From assembly GCA_947034885.2 (NCBI GenBank), contig OX344751.2, forward strand, positions 6,138,001-6,202,000: a stretch of DNA of 64,000 nt. The letters run 5' to 3'. The notes beneath the pieces are model-generated. The model was not told the origin of the DNA, did not search any database, and saw nothing but the letters and a program-made list of their open reading frames with translations. Position numbers and translations under genes: made by a program. Each line of letters begins with the position of its first letter. The stretch's first letter is position 1. Source of the DNA: Thuidium tamariscinum. Its lineage: Eukaryota > Streptophyta > Bryopsida > Hypnales > Thuidiaceae. Shown piece after piece: positions 4,634 to 63,063 of the stretch.

Positions 4634-5959
4634 TCATATCTTAACATTTTTACATTGCATAGGAGCAAATCCAATTTTGCTATATGCATAATCTATCTCA
4701 ATATGAAAGTTTTGTTGAATGTTAGCACCAAATAATTGCATAAGAATAGGAGGATCTTCTATTGGATGTACAAAGGCCAAACACCAAATTTGTTGGTTAC
4801 CTTCAATGAAAAATCCATTGAAGAAAAGGTTTTCAAATCCTAAATGCAAATGCACATCATTTTCAAGATGAAAAATGACATCTGGAACCTTGATATCCAA
4901 AACATTGAGAGAACTATCAAATGCATAGCACACCTCAACTCCTTCAATGCTATAGTAGGAATTGGGTTCAAAACCTGTTTTTTTCTTCATAGCAGCAACA
5001 AAGTTATTTAGAAACCTTGAATGCAATGGCTCATCAAGCCAAGTACCTGAAGCTCCCGTGTCTAAAGCATATCCTCCCACATTAGAAATAGGATCATAAG
5101 AGAGAGTTGTAATGTTGGAAACATCAACATCAATATTTTCCACTGTAATGCCTTTTAAATTGACAAAGTATAGTCCTCGGCCACCTAAACTTGGAGTATA
5201 GTTAAGATTTTTTGTTCTTTGGCCTCCGAATGATATCCAACTTGTGGCATCACTATCAAAAGTTTTAGGTGCAAGACAATATGAAATAATCATGTATATG
5301 CCATCATTATGTTGGGATACTATTTGGTCATAAAATGATCCAAGTTGTGGATTTAAACCAATATTTCCAAAAATCCAACCATTAGGTAGTGTCTCAATCT
5401 CCACATCTTCATATATACATCCAAAAGTGATGTTTGAAAATTGAACATCATTTGAACCCAAAGTAAATACATCTTGGGATAGAATTCCTTTTGGTTCATA
5501 ACCATCTGCATATCTTTCTGAAAAATTACATGGACTTGGATGCTCTAAATTGCATATTGACCAAGAGGATGGATACTGTTTACATAATGGTGAGTTGCAT
5601 AATACACTTTCATATGAGGCTGAAGTTTTAGGATGAAACTTATCAAATGATTGGCTTGGATATCGATGATTGGAACATGGAATCCAAGGTTCTCTACCTC
5701 CAGTGTCAAGTAACATTATGACTTCTTGTGATGGAGTTCCAATAGGAACTTTGAGAAAGTAGTTATCCACATCATATAAACTCCATAATTTGAGGTATAC
5801 GGGATGAAGATTTAAATCAATTTTGTTCATTTGGTTAGCAGTTGATGGAACTGTTAAGTTTTTCATATAAAGTTGGGTTCCGTATACTTGTAAGAAGAAT
5901 AAGCATCCTAATAATGCCAAATTGTTTAGAACAAAGATGAGGGATAAAGATTTATTCAT
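4634..5959 (-). CDS. nepenthesin-type aspartic protease (pepsin family A1)
   Basis: An intronless 441-aa preproprotein of normal length for a plant A1 protease. Residues 1-27 form a hydrophobic signal peptide, so the product enters the secretory route. The first catalytic motif is at 83-87 (LLDTG, Asp85), followed by Gly rather than the usual Ser; the flap tyrosine is probably Tyr150; the second motif is at 298-302 (ALDTG, Asp300). Between the two lies the cysteine-rich nepenthesin insert (C121, C126, C136, C144). The C-terminus has the family's hydrophobic block with GANIQQNFHIEID, then IGFAPMQC. Both catalytic aspartates are present and no frame break is seen, so it is probably functional. 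A broken copy lies at 11900-13400. The substrate is unknown. The start codon is the one directly before the signal peptide, about 45 bp from a TATA box. Confidence 0.93.
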   Translation of the reverse strand: MNKSLSLIFVLNNLALLGCLFFLQVYGTQLYMKNLTVPSTANQMNKIDLNLHPVYLKLWSLYDVDNYFLKVPIGTPSQEVIMLLDTGGREPWIPCSNHRYPSQSFDKFHPKTSASYESVLCNSPLCKQYPSSWSICNLEHPSPCNFSERYADGYEPKGILSQDVFTLGSNDVQFSNITFGCIYEDVEIETLPNGWIFGNIGLNPQLGSFYDQIVSQHNDGIYMIISYCLAPKTFDSDATSWISFGGQRTKNLNYTPSLGGRGLYFVNLKGITVENIDVDVSNITTLSYDPISNVGGYALDTGASGTWLDEPLHSRFLNNFVAAMKKKTGFEPNSYYSIEGVEVCYAFDSSLNVLDIKVPDVIFHLENDVHLHLGFENLFFNGFFIEGNQQIWCLAFVHPIEDPPILMQLFGANIQQNFHIEIDYAYSKIGFAPMQCKNVKI

Positions 5960-6004
5960 TGTTATAGTGTTTTTGGTTTTACCAAATTATGAATTGATAT
6001 CTAA

Positions 6005-11668: not shown

Positions 11669-11899
11669 AACTTTATCACCTATGATTTAGATAATGAAAT
11701 TTTTACTAAGAAAACATTTACCGAAACTAAGTTTTTGGATTTTTAAAAATCTATATAAGAAATTATGTAAAATTTGCGTAAGAATACAAATTAATGGCAT
11801 AAAAATTGTATGAAAACTACTAAAGATTGTATTCAAAAGAAATTGAGAGTCTTAGAAGGAGGAAAAGATTACAATTTCTTTTATAAATATTCATACATT

Positions 11900-13399
11900 C
11901 TATGAGTATTCATATGGTTCAAAAAACTATGAGCCTCACCGTTAAAGATGAATAATGACATTTGAAACCTTGATATCAAAAACATTGAAAGAATTGTCAA
12001 TGCATAACACACTTCATTTAATTCAGCACTAAAGTTGGAATCAAGTTCAAAACTACTTTTGTTCTTCATGGCAACAACAAAACTACTTATGAACCTTGAA
12101 CGCAATGGCTCACATACTTGTGAAGTGCTTGGAGATCCAATGTCTAAAACATACCCTCCCACTTGAGAAATAGGATCAAAAGAAAGTGATGTAATGTTGG
12201 AAACATCAACATTAGCATCCTCCATTGTAATGCCTTTTAAATTGACAAAGGAGAATCCTTAACCACTCAGGTGGACTTGGACTATAATTAAGATTTGTTG
12301 CTCTTTGGCCTCCTAATGATATCCAACTTGTTGCATCACTATCAAAAATCTTAGTTGTAAGACAATATGAAATAATCATGTATATACCATCACTATGTTG
12401 GGATACTATTTACTCATAAAATGATTTGAGTTGTGCATTGAGACCAATATTCCCAAAAATCCGACCATTAGGTCATTTGTAGATCTCCGCATCTTCATAT
12501 ATACATCAAAAGATGATGTTGAAAATCAGACATCATATATACCCAAAGTGAATGCATCTTTCGATAGGACCCCTATTGATTCCAAACCACTGATGTATTT
12601 TTCCCAAAAATTGCATGGAATAAGATGCTTGAAATCACATGTTGACTAAGAGAGTCAATATTGTTTACATATTGGTGGATGGCATAAAACTTTTTGATAT
12701 GAGGATGAAGTTGTAGGATGAAACCTATTGAATAATTGTCTTGGATATAATTCCTGAATTTTTTATTCTATATTTAGGATCATTAAAAATAGCAAAAATA
12801 TCATTTTTTTTTAAAATGCCGTTTTTTGGTATTTTGAGAATAAATTGAAATATAGGCTTTTTTTCATATTTATTATTATTTTTATTTTATTTTTAAAGAT
12901 TTTTTTTCTTTCTACTTCTCAAAAAATTATAACTATATAAAATAATACTAGAATAAATCAAATTCCAAAAGTAATCTAAACCAACTTGATCATTTAATTA
13001 TTGAAGAAAAAAATTACTTTCAATTAATTACTGATATACCTATATATAAATATAAGTATATGAAATTAAAAAAATTAAAAAGTGTAAGAAATAAATATTT
13101 TTTACAATCTAAAAATATTAATAAATAATAAATATATTTAAATAGATTGGAACGAGGAGTCCCAAAGGTTCTCTACCTACAGTGTCTAATTCCATTATAA
13201 CTTTTTGTAATGGTGTACCAATAGAAACTTTAAGAAAGTAGTTATTGATAATTATAAAAGTTTCACAATTTGAGGTGTAATGGATTTAAACACAAATCCA
13301 CTTGTTTACACTATTAGTAGTTGTAGTTAAATTCTTCATGTAAAGTTGAGTTCCACATACTCCTAATTAAAAAGGATAAGCATCTTGCTAATGCCAAAT

Positions 13400-17914: not shown

Positions 17915-18066
17915 GTGAGTGCTTTGCTCACTGATGGTGTGGAGCAATGTTCGTGATATCGAAGTTATTTCTGTTATTTCTGTTAAACTCGATTTGTTCG
18001 TCCCTCTCCTCCTCTGTTCATTGCAACGCTGTACTACCAAATTTCTAATGTTTTTTTTTTTGGCAG
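17915..18066 (+). other. 5'-UTR intron of the cysteine-rich protein gene
   Basis: The donor GCA|GTGAGT and an acceptor with a T11 tract then GGCAG bracket 152 bp that end six bases before the ATG. Splicing removes two upstream ATGs. The call rests on consensus only. Confidence 0.6.
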
Positions 18067-18072
18067 GAAGAA

Positions 18073-18411
18073 ATGTGGAAGGCCAAATTCCTTGCGGTGG
18101 TCATGGCTATAGCCTTGACTATGACTCTTTTTCCTCTCGGGAGTGCACAGCAGCCATTTCCAGGGAGACCTGGAGGAGGGAGACCTGGAAGAGGCCGGGG
18201 AGGATGTTGCGACTTCCCTCCCACCCAACGACAGCGCTGTTGCACCGCCAGCAGGAATCAAGATTTTTGCTGCTCCCCAGTAAACCCAACTCCACCACCT
18301 CAGACTCCCGCACCACCAGCTAACACCGATTTACCGCTTTCCTGTATGTTGGGAAGCCAGATCGTTAGCCTCAATTCATGCTGTGTGGCGAACAACCCGC
18401 CTAGTGGCTAG
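18073..18411 (+). CDS. small secreted cysteine-rich protein, 112 aa
   Basis: Residues 1-25 are a classic signal peptide (MWKAKF, a hydrophobic core, then SAQ). The mature part starts with a Gly/Arg/Pro-rich stretch, then has paired cysteines (GGCCDF, RCCTA, FCCSP), a proline-rich linker of about 20 residues (PTPPPQTPAPP), and a second block with SCML and SCCV. That gives nine cysteines, in CC...CC...CC...C...CC order. The spacing is not that of hydrophobins, LTPs, defensins or EPF peptides. It probably acts in the wall or apoplast. The gene has a TATA box, a 5'-UTR intron and an AATAAA signal about 100 bp after the stop, all consistent with a real gene. Function unknown. Confidence 0.65.
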   Translation: MWKAKFLAVVMAIALTMTLFPLGSAQQPFPGRPGGGRPGRGRGGCCDFPPTQRQRCCTASRNQDFCCSPVNPTPPPQTPAPPANTDLPLSCMLGSQIVSLNSCCVANNPPSG

Positions 18412-28851: not shown

Positions 28852-29658
28852 TTATGGTCTAGATGCTGATTTAGTTTTGAGTTCACTTTCACTCCTACAA
28901 CTCGTCCTGTGGTGCCTGGATGTCTTCAAATCTCGCTCTTGACGCTTGTCAACTTGGTGTCGGTGATTTTCCTTGTGGTGATGGTGATTCTCTTGATCAT
29001 GGTGGTGGTGGTGGTGGTTTTCTTTGGATTGCCCCACAAGCTTAATACCGTTGAGTCCTTTGGGAGGGAGGAAGCTGGGGATGTTGGGAGTACTGTGGGG
29101 GTGTTTGTAACGACGGTGATTTGCTGCTGCAGGCTTATCGGTGGTGGAGGTGTTGAGGTTGTGTTCGAGCAATCGTTTGGAGTGGGAAGACAAGCCTCCG
29201 GCAGGATTCCCTTCGTTGGTTTTGTTGTTCTTCTCCCTTTGAACACTGTAAGTGGCATGACAACTCTTAGTCAAATCCACGAGCTCGGCCATTTGGCTCC
29301 GCTGCTCTAGCCGCTCTTGGCGAGCGATGTTGTTCTGAATCTCCTTCATGCGCTTGATACGCTCTTGAATCTCGTGCCTGAGCTTGCCTTTGGACAAGTG
29401 CTCTTGCCGTTCGGCCCGCATGACTTTGAGAACTGTCTCTCGCTCCACCACCTCGTTGGCCAGAATGTCTAACCACCGCTTCTGCTTGCGCAGCGCGCCT
29501 TGCCCCAGGAGTCGTTTCCTCATCAGCTGCGCTTCTTCGGTGTCGTCGGCTTGCTCGCTGTCCCTCCATCTGTTCGGTTCGGGTATCCCTGTGCCTCCGT
29601 TGCTCCACTCGAATATTCTCTGCAACCTTGCCTTCTCACTCTCTCCCAACAGTGGCAT
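28852..29658 (-). CDS. uncharacterised coiled-coil, histidine-rich protein (probably 3' exon)
   Basis: 268 codons from the first ATG. Residues about 1-125 are highly charged, Arg/Lys/Glu/Gln-rich and helical (KLRHEIQERIKRMKEIQNN), typical of a coiled coil. Residues about 190-268 are low-complexity, with runs of histidine (a six-His run, then HHHHKENHRH) and a basic tail. No enzyme motif is seen. A consensus acceptor (TACCTTAG) lies just upstream of the start, so translation may begin in an earlier exon, for which the ORF at 29708-30013 is a candidate. The ORF is uninterrupted, unlike its pseudogene neighbours. I do not recognise the family; a cytoskeletal or centrosome/flagellum role would be guesswork. 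Confidence 0.55.
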   Translation of the reverse strand: MPLLGESEKARLQRIFEWSNGGTGIPEPNRWRDSEQADDTEEAQLMRKRLLGQGALRKQKRWLDILANEVVERETVLKVMRAERQEHLSKGKLRHEIQERIKRMKEIQNNIARQERLEQRSQMAELVDLTKSCHATYSVQREKNNKTNEGNPAGGLSSHSKRLLEHNLNTSTTDKPAAANHRRYKHPHSTPNIPSFLPPKGLNGIKLVGQSKENHHHHHHDQENHHHHKENHRHQVDKRQERDLKTSRHHRTSCRSESELKTKSASRP

Positions 29659-29707
29659 TCTCAATCTAAGGTAAGACCTTGTAAGTCACTGTTCCGTCGC
29701 CTCAAAT

Positions 29708-51829: not shown

Positions 51830-52378
51830 ATTTTAGCAGCAGTCAGGTGGACGCCTCACCGTCGTAGCGACTCTGGTTTGTGTAGGCTGTGGAGCGGAGT
51901 TGCTCTGGAAAAATGTGGATGCTTCATTACGATCCGTAAGCACAATACGCCGGTTGGAAAAGAGGGTTTCATAGAAGGTGCTAGTTTAGAGTAGAGATGA
52001 AGTTATGGACACTGGGTGGGATCGACAGGAGGATGGTTGTGGGGGAGGATCAGCGTTGGAATGCATTTTTCCGGCTCCGTTTGATCGTCTAGGAAGAATC
52101 TCGAGGCTGAAATTCGGTGGTGGAACGCACTGTTTCAACCGGGTAGGGTTGTTGAGAGCTCGAGGTAGCGTATTGTTAGTGTTCTGAGTTGTTGTAGTTT
52201 CCACTTTGATTTGATTTCTGAGCATGACTTCGAATCACCTGATCAAAGCCCAGACTTGCGGAAGGTATCTGCGTCTTTGTGATGGGAAAAGAAGAGCAGA
52301 GTATCTCAGACAGGATCAATTTTATAGCCTCCATGAAGTAGGTGTCGTGTCGTGAACAGTGGACCTTGATAGGGAAGA

Positions 52379-55300
52379 ATGGCAAGGTACAATGGTCCGG
52401 CAGCTATGGATATGCGTCAGCATTTGGGTGCCTCTCGTTCTCCACATCCTTTGCAACAGTATGGCTCCCAGGTGACCAACAACGGCGATAACATACTCTC
52501 TCCTCTCTCCCACCCTAGCCCGTCAGCCTCTATTGATCTGAGCACTATAAACCCTTCCTTCTCTTCAAACATCACGTCTGAGTTTTCATCCTCTTTTTTT
52601 GATTCAAATTCTCACAACTCCTTTGGCCGCAATGTGGGTTCAGCCACACTCATTCCCCCGTCTCAATCACAGTCTATGCCTCCCAAATCAATGATCAATG
52701 GTGGGTTGATTCCAGCAGATGAGTGGTCGGGCACAACGATCGCAGGGCCTGGTACTCCCAATACTCAGCAGGCACAAGTTCTTCAGAGTCCTCAAGGTCA
52801 AGGTCCTTCTGGCCAGGTAGTACACCAGTCCAAACAGCAGTTTGTTTATGACGGTAGGGTAGTTGCTCCTGGTTCACAAGTTATGCAGGCAATGGGTAAT
52901 CAATATCAAGCGGGTTTGAGTACGAGTCAACATTCGGGGGGCTCTCAAGGGGTGAGCCGAGATCCGTTGCAGTCTTATTCAAATGAGGGCACGACCCTTA
53001 GGTCGCCTCAAGTGCCAATGCGTGGTCCTCAGGCTGACCTGCAGCCAGTGGATATTACTGCTGTGAAATCTGAGTATCCCGATTCGAAGCGCGTGAAGAC
53101 CGAGTACACGGGCATGGAGCGAGTGAAATCAGAATACGCACAGGAGTCATTGACTCAAGCAGCACTACTGAGATCCTCTCATGATTCCACTTATCAAGAA
53201 GGAAGTTTTCATGGACCGACATCCTCTAACCAATTATCAGGTTTCGACGCGGCTCCAACAAGCAGCCAGCACTCTGGGCTTTCTGGAGATAACAAAGTTA
53301 ATCGTAGCGTTGCTCACCAAATGGTGGGAATAACCCAGTCTGGAGGTTATCAGGCTGGAGAAATAAGCAGTCCACATCCAGCTTACAGTAACGGTAAAAC
53401 CTCTCATACTTGGCTACGAAGTGATGACTGAGTTTTGTTTGAATGTCTCAGCAGACTGGTTCTGACGGTCTCTTTGTGTGTAACTTGTGATCAGGGCAAG
53501 CTAATGTACCGCAATCCAGCCAAGAGCGTGGGCAACAAGGGCAGAGTCGCGCGCAGTCTAATTTTCAAGGGACTCAGCAGATCACACAGCAGAGTAATTT
53601 GCAAGGCCAGCAGTCTCTTCAGTCCCTTCGGAGCCTTGGTTTGATGCAAGGAGGAAATTTCCAAGGTGGCCCTCAGTCTCTAGGTGGTGTCTCACAACAA
53701 TCTAATTTCGCAGGCCAGGGCAATGCGAATCATTTGGCTCATTTTCAGCGTTCACCCTCTCAACAATCCCCTTTGCAAATAGCATCAGGGAATCAGTTGT
53801 CACTTTACCAGGCTCAGGTCTGTATTTCCTGGATGCAGAAAGCAAAGTCTTACTGAAAAACAGTTCTCTAAGTCGAATGGCAGGAGTCATCGTTTGCTTC
53901 GGTCTGTAGAAGTGGTCAATTGTTGAACTACTGCTTTGTGAACATTCTAGAATATTTACGTGAGGGTGCACTTCATTCTGGTTCCCCTATTTCTGTTTTC
54001 TGTTTCTGAATCTTTTTAGTGTCATTTATAAGAGCAGATGCGCTGTTTCTTTTTCTTATTGTCTGTACCAAAGCTAGTTGTGGCTTTTACTTCAGATTTG
54101 TTATTCTTTGGTGTTTACTGTTTCTGTTATTTCAAAGTTTCTGAGCTTGGATATGCTCAACAAATTCAGCAGGCTCAGGCCCAACTTCAAGCTCAAGCCC
54201 AAACCCAAGCACAGGCCCAAGCACTGGCCCAGGCCCAGGCCCAGGCCCAAGCCCAAGCCCAGGCTCAAGCTCAAGCAATGTCACAGGCGCATGCACAGGC
54301 GCAAGCAGCCAACCAGCAAGCGGCTCTGCAACAGGCGGCAGCTAATCAAGCAGCTATCCTGCAAGCGCGCCAGGTGCAACAGGGAGTTGGTCCGCAACAG
54401 CAACTCTTGTTTCACTCAGGGCAGCAACAGCAGTTTCAGTCGGGCCAAGCTCAAGGATTCCAGGTTAGCATTATTTGGTCTTGACCGTGGTGTTCTGTTG
54501 GCATTAGGGGAGATTTTTATTTAGTGTGTTCAAGAGTCAGTACGGCGTTTGTCAGCTTCTGTTCCTTTACTATCGGTGTGGTATGTTTATTCGCTAATGT
54601 GCAGAAGATATCTCAGTATGTTGTTTTGTTGTAACCATGATACATTTGTACTATTTACGTTTTCTCACCTTAGATTTGCCTCCCTCATGCATTCAGGTCT
54701 TTGTTTGTTCTCAAGTAACAGTAATGATTATCGTATAGATTATAATTTCTCTTACCATTGTTGCAGGGGGCAAATGGCTTGCCATTGACCGGAGCTGCAC
54801 AACAAATGCTCGCCCGTATGCAGCCTAGAATGCAAAATCAGCTTTTTCAAGGGCATAAACTCGTCAATCGCCACCTTATTCAAGGTTCAGGATTGAAAAT
54901 CGGAAATCTGGATAGTGGATACAGAAGTCGGATGCTACCGGCTGTTGTTTCAGAATGTAATCATACAATCATGCTGTACATTCAAGAGCAAAGAAAACGT
55001 CCTCCTGTAAGTGTTCAAGTTTCTTTAGTAAAGAGAGCTGGTTTAACTGAATGTTGGCTTCTCTGTTGATTTCTCGCTCCTTAGTTTGTTGGCTTAATGT
55101 TTAGATATTCAGACTGTTCAAAAAATTCCTTACACGTTTATTTGTCTCATTATTCTGCACTAGCTTCTCCCTTCTGACGCTTTGTGACCTTCCTTGCAGG
55201 ATAATAATATCGCCTTTTGGCAAAGACTTGTTCACACGTTTTTTGAACCTGGAGCTTTAAAGCGCTGGTGCTTAAGCAGTTACAACACTTCCCCTATTGG

Positions 55301-58300
55301 TCGGCATGCTCAAGGCCTCTTTCCCATGGTACTGATCAGCACCCAGATCTATGTACCGAAGAACTCTTACCTAATATGTAGATTTGATGTGCTTAGTACT
55401 CGTTATAATAGTTTCGTTGTCACGTGACTTGTATATGCGTAGTTCGGTCAAGCGAGCACAACATAAGCTTGGGAGTTTCATCATTCTATTTATCATAGTT
55501 CTGCCTCTGGTTTGCATGGTTGTGTTGTCTCACCATACCTGTACATACTGCAGGAGTTTTGGTTCTGTAATCTGTGCGGTGTGCAACCAGGACGAGGTTT
55601 TGGTGAGTATTATCTAAATCCTTTCAGGTTTTACATCTGCGTTGCGAGCAATGTATATAAGTAGTCCGCTGTGTTGTTAGTTGAAATGCTGCTGGTAGGA
55701 ATGAAGTGATTATCTTCAAAGTATTGACATTTTTGCTTTTTATCTGAACAGAATCCTGCACAGATGTTCTGCCCCGGCTGTTTAAAATTAAATATGATAG
55801 TGGGTTGCTGGACGAGCTCCTGTTTCTAGATCTGGCTGAAGAGTATGTTCATCTCTTCCTCTCTATCTGTTTATGTTAGTCACTTTCAGCATGAAATTCA
55901 TCTTTGCTCCCTTAGACTGCAAGATACTTACCTATCAAGGTGTGCTCTTAGCTTTATGTATTAAGCTCGTTGTTGTCAATATTTTTCATGTATGGTATTG
56001 ATTGCATGGTATTATTGGCAAATTGTCGTGGTGAGGAATTAGCTCCTTCAAGTTCGACTAGTTTCCGTAGGGTCAGATCTCAATTTCCAGTATCTCCTCA
56101 TGACTCATTTATGAATTTGTCTTATTGGTTAGGTATGTTCTACCCTCTGGGAAAATGGTACTGGAGTATTCAAGGGCAGTTCACGAATCAATATTTGCTG
56201 AATTGAGGGTACGTATTACTGAGTGTCTGACAGATCTTCCTTGAATTATGATTCGAATGTATTGAATCTGTTCTCTCTGTTGCATTGTTTGAAGGTATTC
56301 GTAGCTTTTGCAGAAAAGGCTTTCAAGCAATTGGAATTTATGCTTCCTTCACTTACCATTCGTTAGCATAAGAGAAGCTTGCTCATGAGTACGATTCTCG
56401 AGTTTTGAATTTTCTCGTAAGTTGAGGTATAGGTTCAAGGAATTGAAGTTTTTATCTGAGTGGAATAATGTTACTGATTCAATCCTCGTGGTGTTTTGGC
56501 AGGTGGTCAGATATGGAACTCTCCGAGTGACATTTAGTCCATCATATAAGGTATGTTAAGCTACTTATTGGCTTTCAATGTGGAACCGGACTTTGATGTA
56601 CGGATCTGGAGTTTTTGAAATTAAGAAACGCTAACTTAATTCTATGAATTGATGCTTGGAAGGCGCACTGTATTGATTGGGCAATATTCGTGTAATTCAG
56701 ATTCAAGCGTGGGAGTTCTGTACAAAAAGTCACGAAGAAGTAGTGCCATGCAAGAATCTTCAAGAGCAGGTGAAACATCTAACAGTAGTCCAATTACTTT
56801 GCTCAATCTTCTCTGATGTAAGCTGTCTTGAGTTCTCGAGATCTATTAGAGGTTTCGTGGTAGGTGAGTTCAAATTTGTATGTTCTTGGTTTCTTACCCG
56901 TACAATTGTGTGTAAGCAGGCCCAGCAGCTAGAGAACTTGGTGATGGAGGCTGAACATGAGAACTTCAACAAGAGCGTAGAGAATTTGACCAAACATTGC
57001 AATTTGTATGTCGTCTCATTAATTCTGAAGGGCATTCTAACAGTTTCACGATTTCATTAGTATTGCTATTTGCACCTTCTGTCTGGAACGATTGAAATTT
57101 GAGTGGAATCCATTTTTTTAGTTTATGTACCTTGTCGGAAATTCTTACTGCTTAGTGAATCGTTCCAGCATTGTCAATTCTGGAACTGAACATGGATTCA
57201 AGAGTAAAGCAATTGATAAAATGTGAGGTTGGATGTCAGGTTTATGACTACAGCAAGACAGTTGGCTGTAAAGCTGGATGCACCTATGGTTAATGATCTT
57301 GGCTTTTCGAAACGCTATGTGAGATGCTTGCAGGTACTGTGATTTGTCATTGCGTTTGAGCCATTGAGTGTTCTCGTGATTCATGTCATCGTATTGATAG
57401 AGTGGGGGTGTTGTCTCATTCTAGTGTTACGGAAGATAGTATACTTCAAATTTTTGACCAAGCTTGCCATGCAAACCATTATCTAACATGACTTTTTTGG
57501 CTCTCGTCGTAGATTTCTGAAGTCGTGAACAGCATGAAGGACTTAATTTCATTTGAGAGGAAGACACGCCTCGGACCAATACGTATGCTCCTCCTTGGTT
57601 ACATTGCGTGTTTTTGCGGTCACTAGATGGTCTATTTGTTATGCAATTGATTTGGTCAGACTGCTATTGAAGTTGGTTTGGTCTCTTGCACTGAATGGTA
57701 CTGACCGATTGTTCTTGCCATGTAACAGATAGCATGATAGAGTTTCCAAGTGCTCGAAAATTGCAGCAACAAGGCTTGCTTACGAACCATCCCAATCAAC
57801 CGTCTCTTACGGCTTTAATAAACCATTTCACGCAAGGCACCCCTCGTCAGCCTGTACCTTACTTACAACAACAGCAAGGGCAGGTTGCAATGCCTTCTGG
57901 TGGGCAGGTTATCCTGGCAAACGGACAGCAGGGTGTGTCTCAACTTCAAGGTCACCTACTTAGTCAGCTCCAACCTGGCGCTGTGGATCAAGTCCATGGA
58001 GATCCAAATACGGCAAAAATAGCGCAGTTTTCAAACCATTTACAGTCACAGTTGCGGGGTCAAATGGACGCACGAAACTTTGGGTTAGCACAAGCAGGGC
58101 AGGCATACAATAACCAGATGCAGCCACCCGGACCCTTGCATTTATCTGGGAGTTCGCAGGCTCATTCTGGAAATTCTAATCCCACCAACGGACTGCCAAC
58201 TGGTCAGTTACAGGCTCAAATGTCGTCACCGGGCCTCAGTCAACCACAAGGCCCGGTTTCTGCACAGGCTCACTCAGGGGGTGCTGCTGGTGGCAACGCT

Positions 58301-58606
58301 CCCTCGTTTCCTGGGAATCAGGTGCACCTGCAACTCAATCATGCGCAGGCACTTTCTCAGCTTCAAGGACAATCAACTATGAGTCAAGTTCCACCATCTG
58401 CTCTGAGTGGGGGCCACGCTCCACCTATCTTCAACCAGTTGTCACAACAGCCGTTTCCTGCTCCTTCGAAGCAGCTCACACCACAACCTACAGGTCAGGT
58501 TCTCTCGCAGTCGCATTCCCTCAACCAGGGCATAGTGAACGGGGGTCAGCAGAGCCTACCTGGCACTCCTCAAAGTGAAATTAGTGACTTAAGGTCAAAT
58601 GCATAG
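52379..58606 (+). CDS. SEU: SEUSS-like LDB-domain transcriptional co-regulator, 14 coding exons, 1161 aa
   Basis: SEUSS proteins are nuclear adaptors that bridge DNA-binding factors and LEUNIG-type corepressors. Phase-consistent exons: 52379-53393, 53495-53817, 54146-54463, 54767-55006, 55200-55328, 55554-55602, 55752-55842, 56133-56208, 56503-56550, 56701-56769, 56920-57005, 57240-57333, 57513-57582, 57729-58606. All have GT-AG ends and no stop interrupts them. The Gln/Ser-rich N-terminus includes three VK(S/T)EY motifs at residues 229-253. Exon 3 encodes a Gln-Ala dipeptide tract. The LDB domain runs from about 620 to 870: DNNIAFWQRLV, KRWCLSSY, FCNLCGVQPGRGF, VLPRLFKIKYDSG, WEFCTKSHEE, VNDLGFSKRYVRCLQ, ISEVVNSMKDLI. 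The Gln/Pro-rich C-terminus is in the last exon. The LDB core matches the SEUSS family closely; the flanks are conserved only in composition. SEUSS versus SEUSS-LIKE cannot be decided. Confidence 0.95.
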
Positions 58607-60714: not shown

Positions 60715-62854
60715 TCAAGGGATGGGGAAGGCCCTGCCATGGCAGACGCAAAGGTACCCCAACGGACAAGCTTCCGCGTGGAGGTCCGAGGAAGAGGAAG
60801 AGGAGGACGGGGCCGAGGCCGCGGAGGAGGAGGTCTGGTTGCTGCACTCGAAGCTCACCACCTGGACGGTGCAGGGCGAGCAGGCGCCACATGTGTGCGC
60901 ACAGTCCGGCGCAGAGGAGCCGATGAGAACAACGTCGACGACGACAACGCCGGGTGACGACGAAGAAGACGAAGGCGAAAGCTGCTCAGAAACAAAAACC
61001 CATTAAACAAATTAATTTAAACCAACTCTGGCTGGACTTTACGTGTCGAATTCTTTAATTAATTGGTGGTAATCCAGTGTGCAGTGGCGTACGAAGGAAA
61101 GGCTGTCGAGGCTTGTTGACCGCCAGCAACTCTTGCACCGCGCTATTGACCAGCGCCAGCGCAGAAACGAGAAACGAGAAAAATAAAATCTGCATCTCTC
61201 TCTCTTCCTAGAACCCTTACAACTTTTTGTTGGTAACTCTTTTTGTTGAAACTGTTTTTTAGGCATAAGGGTAGCCCTGGTTATGAACACGTGGACAAAA
61301 TTTGAGCAAGTTTCAAGAGAATCTCAAGTTTTTACAAGTTCTTGAATGTTGGGTCAGTGGTCATTGACCATTTCATAGTAGATTGGGTGGCTGTGGCTGT
61401 GAATAGTGAGTGAAACAAATGTAAAGATGAAGTGTATCATGGAAAAAAAATTTAGATATTTAGATGATTAGGTGCACTCACTGATGATTTTTAGATGATT
61501 TATTGTTTTTTGTAAATTCATTTAGAGTCATTTGTTACGGCATATTTTGTCCATTTGGGTTAACATTGGAAAGATGAAAGTTGTCATTGACGTATCTAAA
61601 CCCCCCAAAATTAGATTCTTGGATGAACAAGTGCATTCTTTATTTTCATGCAATAGTAGAAAGGAAGACATGGGGTACTAAACTAGAATGGGAGAGCTTA
61701 GTTTGATAATTAAGTTCGCATGAACACCAAAATTATCATGCCCATATGGGCCTTTGGAACCAAATTCTCTTATTATACCTTGGTGACAAAGTTTGTCAGT
61801 TTCTTCTAGTAATAGCTAATTTCTCCTCAAGTAATTCAATGGACACTTTTTATCCTCCATGGGAATTCAAGGTCAATGCCTTCTTGTAAGGTTAGGAGCT
61901 TGAAATCTATTATATATTACTTTTCTAGCCTTAGTTTGGGGATTCATTCCCCATTCAATTGACTCATCATTCACTCTGATTTTGAAAGATCAAAGTTCTC
62001 TTTATTTTATTCATTTACTGTGCTAAATATCTTAACAAGCTCGATGATGATACCCTGAAGATTACTTTCTTAAGCATTGATGTTCAATTGGTTGTTTAGT
62101 GATTAATTACCGGTATACACTCTGTCAAGTTTGGGACACGACCCACAATACTGAACTGATCTCAAGATTTCATTACGCCTAGCCTGGTAAGTTGGCCATC
62201 ACTTAGCAGAGCTCTAAGCATGGCTGCTGAATCAATTGTACTGAAATCCGCTCTCTTGACGAACTCGAGTTTCAAGCAGAATTCAAATGAGCTTTGCGCA
62301 ACGCCAAGTCTATATTATCATGCCCAAGCTGAATTCAGTAGACAATTGCACAAGCAATTCCCTAGAATCGTGAATAAAATTGACTCCTGTACACTAATTA
62401 ATGGTTTCAAATCCTCACGTGTATGAATCGGATGCAAGGATTAATTTGACGCACCTTCAAACTGGAATCTTCTCTCAACAAATGCTTCTCCACATGATGC
62501 GTGGAGAGTTCCGGTGCATTAGAAACCCGCGGCACGTCTTCAGTGCCTGCACAACCACCGACAATGTTTTCAGACATTAGTGAATCCTTAGAAACTCCAA
62601 GCTAGCTTCAATTAATAGCACCCTCTCTATCATATCTCTCTCTCAATTACTAGCAAGATCTCATTGACAACAACATGCAAATAAACATGATTTGCAGCAA
62701 AATAATGGAGTCCATATTCGAGCAAGCAGCTACAGACTGCAAAATTACAAATGCCAGGAGCTAGCCAGCACTAACGTTGCCTCACGGCGTCCGTGATGCC
62801 CGAGTTCGAAATCAGTAGCACCATTAGCAACGCTACTCCGACTTTGAGTCCCAT
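60715..62854 (-). CDS. EPF1/EPF2-type stomatal patterning peptide precursor, 3 exons, 145 aa
   Basis: EPF1/EPF2 peptides are secreted, bind ERECTA-family receptors with TMM, and restrict stomatal development. Exon 1 (62776-62854) encodes a signal peptide (MGLKVGVALLMVLLIS). Exon 2 (62455-62546) is a propeptide with THHVEKHLLRED. Exon 3 (60715-60981) encodes the mature domain GSSAPDCAHTCGACSPC, then FEC, a Ser-rich loop, and CPLGYLCVCHGRAFPIP, and ends in TGA. Phases join exactly (1, then 0), with donors CAAC|GTTAGT and AAG|GTGCGT and acceptors GTGCAG and GAGCAG. Introns are 228 and 1473 bp. The eight cysteines are at 84, 88, 91, 94, 103, 129, 135 and 137. Their spacing is that of Arabidopsis EPF1 except between the fifth and sixth, where 25 residues replace 5. 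A TATA box lies about 200 bp upstream. No transcript evidence is available, so exon 2 is the least certain part. Confidence 0.87.
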
Positions 62855-63054
62855 TGGAACGACCAGGAACGCAGAATCAATCAGCACTAATCCTCAGTCA
62901 CCAATTAATACCAGCCAAATCAACGAACGAATTGCTCTCAATCTCTCCAAAAATCTCTCTGTAAGCAAGTATGAAGAGGCTAGAACGTAACCAAGCATGG
63001 AATAGAAGGAACAGAATTCTATCGTGGGTATTCGCTGTTGATTGAACCTCTAAC

Positions 63055-63063
63055 ATATATATA
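63055..63063 (-). promoter_or_regulatory. TATA box of the EPF gene
   Basis: On the minus strand CCTATATATATG lies about 200 bp before the EPF start codon, consistent with a 5' leader of some 170 bases. Confidence 0.6.

Follow-up and report, generated by a model that had tools for sequence, protein, structure and literature searches.

The EPF family of peptides is reported to occur in land plants but in none of the algae named in the same paper (PMC3670920). EPF1 and EPF2 bind pairs of TMM and ERECTA-family receptors (PMC6749341), a Gly-Ser (GS) motif is critical for receptor binding (PMC12755873), and giving EPF2 the inter-strand loop of Stomagen, or the reverse, is reported to swap repression and promotion of stomata (PMC12755873, PMC12605736). 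Two extra cysteines in that loop define the EPF1–EPF2–EPFL7 clade, whose fourth disulfide sits there (PMC3670920, PMC12755873), with PgEPF2 as one member without them (PMC3670920). The greater flexibility of the loop in EPF1/EPF2-like peptides, among them moss EPF1, has been put down to loop length and the extra disulfide (PMC3670920), and the EPF1 loop is described as disordered in the EPF1–ERL1–TMM structure (PMC6749341; from a figure legend that leaves the missing residues unspecified). Here we describe, in a 64-kb stretch of Thuidium tamariscinum contig OX344751.2 (‘the window’), an EPF1/2-type gene in which one cysteine interval, between the fifth and sixth cysteines (C5–C6), carries a serine-rich insert that is probably a tolerated repeat expansion.

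Among the closest described systems is EPF1 of the moss Physcomitrium patens (PpEPF1), reported as an EPF1/EPF2-type stomatal repressor (PMC5047656, PMC3670920). PpEPF1 represses stomata, rescued Arabidopsis epf1 partly and epf2 only slightly, and has a mutant phenotype that requires TMM (PMC5047656).

Results

The eight-cysteine exon of the window matched the Pfam EPF model (PF17181) with E = 5.9e-11 and 42.6 bits (cut-off 27), and the joined 145-residue protein scored 42 bits. The match spanned 50 of the 52 model positions, using 67 residues where Arabidopsis EPF1 (AtEPF1) uses 50, which amounts to a complete domain plus 17 residues. Searching Protein Data Bank (PDB) chains at E up to 10 returned three matches, EPF1 (47.2 bits), EPF2 (39.3 bits) and EPFL4 (12.2 bits, E = 1.7), and none to Stomagen; by pairwise scores, EPF1 and EPF2 were closer than EPFL4 or Stomagen. 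Outside the C5–C6 interval, 23 of 43 scaffold residues were identical to AtEPF1 and 24 of 43 to AtEPF2 (eight of each being cysteines), while AtEPF1 and AtEPF2 agree with one another at 26 of the same 43 positions. When the non-cysteine residues were shuffled 20,000 times around fixed cysteines, 23 identities with EPF1 were never reached (mean 10.7, maximum 19).

The six scaffold cysteines and the N-terminal GS motif given as EPF/EPFL features (PMC12755873) are present, as are the two extra loop cysteines of the EPF1–EPF2–EPFL7 clade, eight in all; the loop of the Stomagen clade, which is without extra cysteines, does not describe this peptide. A preliminary description of the sequence had called the gene EPF1/2-type, and the Pfam match, the best solved relatives (AtEPF1 and AtEPF2) and scaffold identities beyond those of shuffles bear this out. 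By these measures it is a genuine EPF1/2-type gene carrying a natural loop-length variant, ordinary in kind. The family’s reported occurrence in land plants and not in the algae named (PMC3670920) points to the window being land-plant sequence, and searches for relatives, one among viral contigs and one among genomes of bacteria and archaea, gave 599 and 598 pattern matches, none confirmed in either set, as expected for a land-plant family. Four cysteine-motif strings sought in the literature found an EPF2 fragment in PMC13082318 and also matched a cucurbit virus paper.

As first described, the eight cysteines (residues 84, 88, 91, 94, 103, 129, 135 and 137 of the 145-residue protein) are spaced 3-2-2-8-25-5-1, with the C5–C6 interval at residues 104–128 (Table 1). 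A spacing of 3-2-2-8-5-5-1 had also been ascribed to AtEPF1; its full PDB sequence gives 3-2-2-8-8-5-1, and the value of 5 belongs to AtEPF2 (3-2-2-8-5-5-1, full PDB sequence). The claimed enlargement from 5 to 25 is thus right in its end point but not in its EPF1 baseline, and with 8 residues in AtEPF1 and 5 in AtEPF2 the insert measures 17–20 residues. The remaining six intervals are identical to those of both Arabidopsis peptides, and C5–C6, the interval enlarged here, is the only one that differs between those two; its 25 residues fall outside the pair’s 5 or 8, which is a comparison and not a feature by which the papers cited define the clade. Measured from C4 to C7, the loop has 40 residues, against 23 in AtEPF1, 20 in AtEPF2, 23 in AtEPFL4 and 20 in Stomagen (range 20–23 in these four solved relatives).

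AtEPF1 (PDB 5xjo chain F) resembles the window peptide in its eight cysteines, GS motif, PDC start, SF-x-C and C-P-x-x-Y-x-C-x-C motifs and P-x-P end, with six of seven cysteine intervals equal, but its C5–C6 interval has neither a serine run nor an N-x-S/T glycosylation sequon. AtEPF2 (PDB 5xkj chain E) has as many equal intervals and shares GSS-x-PDC, CGACSPC and SFEC, but its C5–C6 interval likewise lacks a sequon. Stomagen/EPFL9 (PDB 2liy) shares the six-cysteine scaffold in outline, its C1–C2 and C3–C4 spacings being off by one residue, but is without C5 and C6. In the window peptide the interval contains an N-Q-T motif (Table 1), and its last residues, HAEA, align with EAET of EPF1. The insert had been called almost entirely Ser, Ala and Pro, which is too strong: these account for 18 of the 25 interval residues (12 Ser, 5 Ala, 1 Pro), and N, Q, T, D, L, H and E occur once each.

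The C5–C6 lengths compared were two, both from Arabidopsis, and loop length has been tied to flexibility in a group that includes moss EPF1 (PMC3670920); both points favour a long interval that is typical of a seedless-plant clade and represents an old, ordinary length difference. We consider this a real, if somewhat unlikely, possibility, as the TCC-biased, phased codons described below point to a fairly recent tract and the literature passages available to us do not mention a long C5–C6 interval in moss EPF1. No report of so long a C5–C6 interval came up in searches of the literature or in those passages, though figures, supplements and subscription papers could still contain one.

An artefact, whether misassembly, a spliced-out segment or a pseudogene, would find some support in a gene model known from genomic sequence alone, with splice sites picked by eye from consensus, and in the G+C-rich exon being open in other frames too, so that openness by itself proves little. 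It is nevertheless highly improbable, because the insert lies in frame between conserved blocks of a full-length domain match; the frame of the eight-cysteine exon is intact through the 75 nt of the interval, with conserved flanks on either side. The preliminary description had allowed that transcripts might splice out the Ser-rich part. A listing of canonical GT–AG introns no shorter than 60 nt gave 12 candidates; donors were allowed anywhere between the first cysteine and a point just beyond C5, and acceptors anywhere from the final ten interval codons on. The three that keep the frame would remove C1–C5, C2–C5 or C5–C8, and none takes only the insert, which makes such splicing unlikely. For the lone GT within the interval, the two nearest AGs are 38 and 75 nt away, and use of the farther one would remove C6 to C8. 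A hidden intron excising the insert alone was rejected, every in-frame candidate also losing conserved cysteines.

A further possibility is that stomata have been reduced or lost and the EPF gene is drifting under relaxed constraint. This is quite unlikely, given that outside the interval the domain is intact, with its eight cysteines and GS motif in place, its frame open and its splice sites matching the consensus.

The coding DNA of the interval (68% G+C) is a phased TCC/TCT tract. TCC makes up 7 of its 12 Ser codons; elsewhere in the coding sequence the share is 3 of 17 (Fisher P 0.046), and the exon at 57695–58603 has 1 of 34 (P 1e-4). Self-match of the DNA at lag 6 was above that of synonymous-codon resampling (P 0.0034, 5,000 draws), and at lag 3 only weakly so (P 0.065). 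The P values are uncorrected for the trial of two lags and two codon contrasts. At score 40 Tandem Repeats Finder reported no array, but at score 30 it found two short ones, a perfect 6-bp unit in 2.8 copies (60788–60804) and a 12-bp unit whose 2.7 copies are imperfect, at 65% matches (60800–60831), so that the term ‘microsatellite-like’ used earlier is fair but weak.

A phased TCC/TCT tract that includes the window’s longest purine/pyrimidine run favours slippage. A CAAGCC (Gln-Ala) array is present nearby at 54170–54307, in a neighbouring Gln-rich reading frame; together with the Ser/Val tract in the same exon as the insert (Table 1) it is suggestive, though not proof, of slippage rather than a purpose-built loop. 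The phased codons, the longest tract and the position of the insert at an already variable interval give sequence support to the tolerated microsatellite-like expansion that had been offered earlier as one of two alternatives. We think it probable that the insert is a tolerated, disordered repeat expansion inside the mini-loop expected to be closed by the fourth disulfide, and that repressor function is kept.

If so, replication slippage on the TCC/TCT tract of this G+C-rich exon would have lengthened C5–C6 from about 5–8 to 25 residues. The precursor would be made and its leader and pro-region removed, leaving the eight-cysteine domain, which starts at about GSSAPDC and runs to the C terminus, as the secreted ligand, in which the fourth disulfide, C5–C6, would close the interval at its base and the insert would form a flexible, possibly N-glycosylated tongue. 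The GS-containing N-terminus and the scaffold would still bind the TMM–ERECTA pair and repress stomata. We infer that the exons are spliced as predicted, that the disulfides pair in this way, that the insert is flexible and glycosylated, that it arose by slippage, and that the peptide binds the receptors and acts as a repressor; stomatal repression through TMM and ERECTA-family receptors is suggested by analogy, the scaffold, GS motif and all eight cysteines being kept, as would fit the same role as in the relatives.

The enlarged interval might instead change function, with a longer or glycosylated loop altering preference for TMM or ERECTA or giving a weaker or competing ligand. In chimeras of EPF2 and Stomagen the loop is reported to determine whether stomata are repressed or promoted (PMC12755873, PMC12605736), the C4–C7 loop here exceeds those of the four solved relatives, and the NQT sequon is an addition relative to the C5–C6 intervals of AtEPF1 and AtEPF2. 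The preliminary description was right in outline that the loop between conserved cysteines sets promotion or repression, but that loop is C4–C7, and the insert occupies only C5–C6. The promoter Stomagen has a short loop without C5 and C6, whereas both extra cysteines are kept here, the insert is of low complexity at an interval that already varies, and the EPF1 loop is described as disordered in the solved complex (PMC6749341). A change of function is, in our judgement, unlikely. Very doubtful is a selected, glycosylated tongue, in which an N-glycan on residue 105 and the Ser-rich segment, stapled by C5–C6, would tune the spread of the ligand or its seating on TMM–ERECTA, with a length that slippage could change.

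Several points weigh against a tolerated expansion with function kept. The repeat is short and imperfect, and one Ser-codon contrast is marginal. With Arabidopsis supplying the only lengths compared, the interval may have been long and conserved since ancient times instead of having expanded recently, and the peptide is known here from the genome alone. Reported loop swaps reverse activity, so a doubled loop is not to be assumed neutral; when PpEPF1 was modelled by homology, not all of its scaffold disulfides formed (PMC3670920), so pairing in seedless-plant members is not to be taken for granted. The likelihoods of the explanations also overlap, as an old clade-wide interval could itself have begun by slippage.

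The gene lies on the minus strand, from a start ATG at 62854 to the end of the stop codon at 60715, and its three predicted exons (79 + 92 + 267 nt) join in frame to give 145 codons and a stop (Table 1). The segment at 60715–60981 to which the earlier observation referred is exactly the third of these, with acceptor CTGAGCAG/CT (the slash marking the splice boundary). As predicted, the gene’s anatomy is open and consensus-spliced. Mean hydropathy of the leader is 1.88 to 2.5 (11-residue windows over residues 1–20, on the hydropathy scale only). Exon 3 has 64% G+C compared with 35.5% for the window, and its RNA structure was not more stable than that of shuffles (z 0.48). An upstream ATG at 63056 (minus strand), which overlaps the end of a TATA-like element and opens a 52-codon frame, probably lies upstream of any EPF transcript start. 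Another at 62998 (minus strand), before the EPF start, opens a 34-codon frame ending at 62894 that, if transcribed, could dampen EPF translation.

Table 1 Features of the EPF gene and its C5–C6 interval
Feature	Position in window	Strand	Remarks
C5–C6 interval, residues 104–128, SNQTSSSAASAPSSSSSSSDLHAEA	60769..60843	-	Holds serine-rich insert of ~17–20 residues
N-glycosylation sequon N-Q-T, residues 105–107	60832..60840	-	Motif only; Asn is the second residue after C5
20-nt homopyrimidine tract, coding strand, TCCTCCTCTTCCTCTTCCTC	60788..60807	-	Longest purine/pyrimidine tract of the 64-kb window; next is 17
Second low-complexity tract LSPSSSSSSPGVVVVDVVLIG, pro-region, start of exon 3	60919..60981	-	TCG/TCT and GTC repeats
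Exon 1, coding part, 79 nt	62776..62854	-	Start codon and hydrophobic leader MGLKVGVALLMVLLISNSGITDAVRQ; donor CAAC/GTTAGT, phase 1
Exon 2, 92 nt	62455..62546	-	Pro-region; acceptor TTGTGCAG/GC, donor TTGAAG/GTGCGT, phase 0
Exon 3, 267 nt including stop	60715..60981	-	Pro-region Ser/Val tract, then eight-cysteine EPF domain
TATA-like element TATATATA	63056..63063	-	209 nt upstream of EPF start codon; consensus match only

No second EPF gene was detected in the 64-kb window: tblastn returned the EPF locus and one 8-residue match (E 6.5), and a six-frame scan for CX3CX2CX2C returned the EPF locus alone. Rfam gave no matches at gathering thresholds, and NCBIfam, a library of bacterial and archaeal families, gave none.

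Elsewhere in the window, several Gln-rich reading frames at 52373–58606 (plus strand), ending 2.1 kb from the EPF gene’s stop, are probably exons of one gene. Within the open reading frame (ORF) at 56677–57057, sub-threshold matches to LIM_bind (19.3 bits, cut-off 24.2) and to DUF5362 suggest a SEUSS/Ldb1-like co-regulator. An ORF at 28852–29685 (minus strand) has His-rich stretches and a sub-threshold match (17.5 bits, cut-off 23.3) to UPF0193, presumably a flagella-linked family that would fit a plant with swimming sperm, at this score only a hint. An aspartyl protease-like ORF of TAXi type at 4634–5986 (minus strand; Pfam E = 2.2e-29) has a partial second copy at 11881–12258 (minus strand; 53 of 86 residues identical), which probably represents a duplicate in decay or one exon of such a duplicate. 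An open frame at 18049–18411 (plus strand) would encode a small protein that begins with a hydrophobic stretch and has cysteines in pairs (GCCDFPPTQRQRCC...); it resembles secreted cysteine-rich peptides, and Pfam at E 0.1 gave no match to it.

Discussion

The loop of EPF peptides is said to decide whether a member represses or promotes stomata, and the available passages of the papers cited contain no test of how long a loop is tolerated. A natural near-doubling of the loop, in which all cysteines are kept and the insert is confined to one interval, is a ready-made test of loop length per se. Its significance would be greater if the length varies between individuals or close species and, should the glycosylated tongue prove true, loop length would be an evolvable dial of stomatal spacing.
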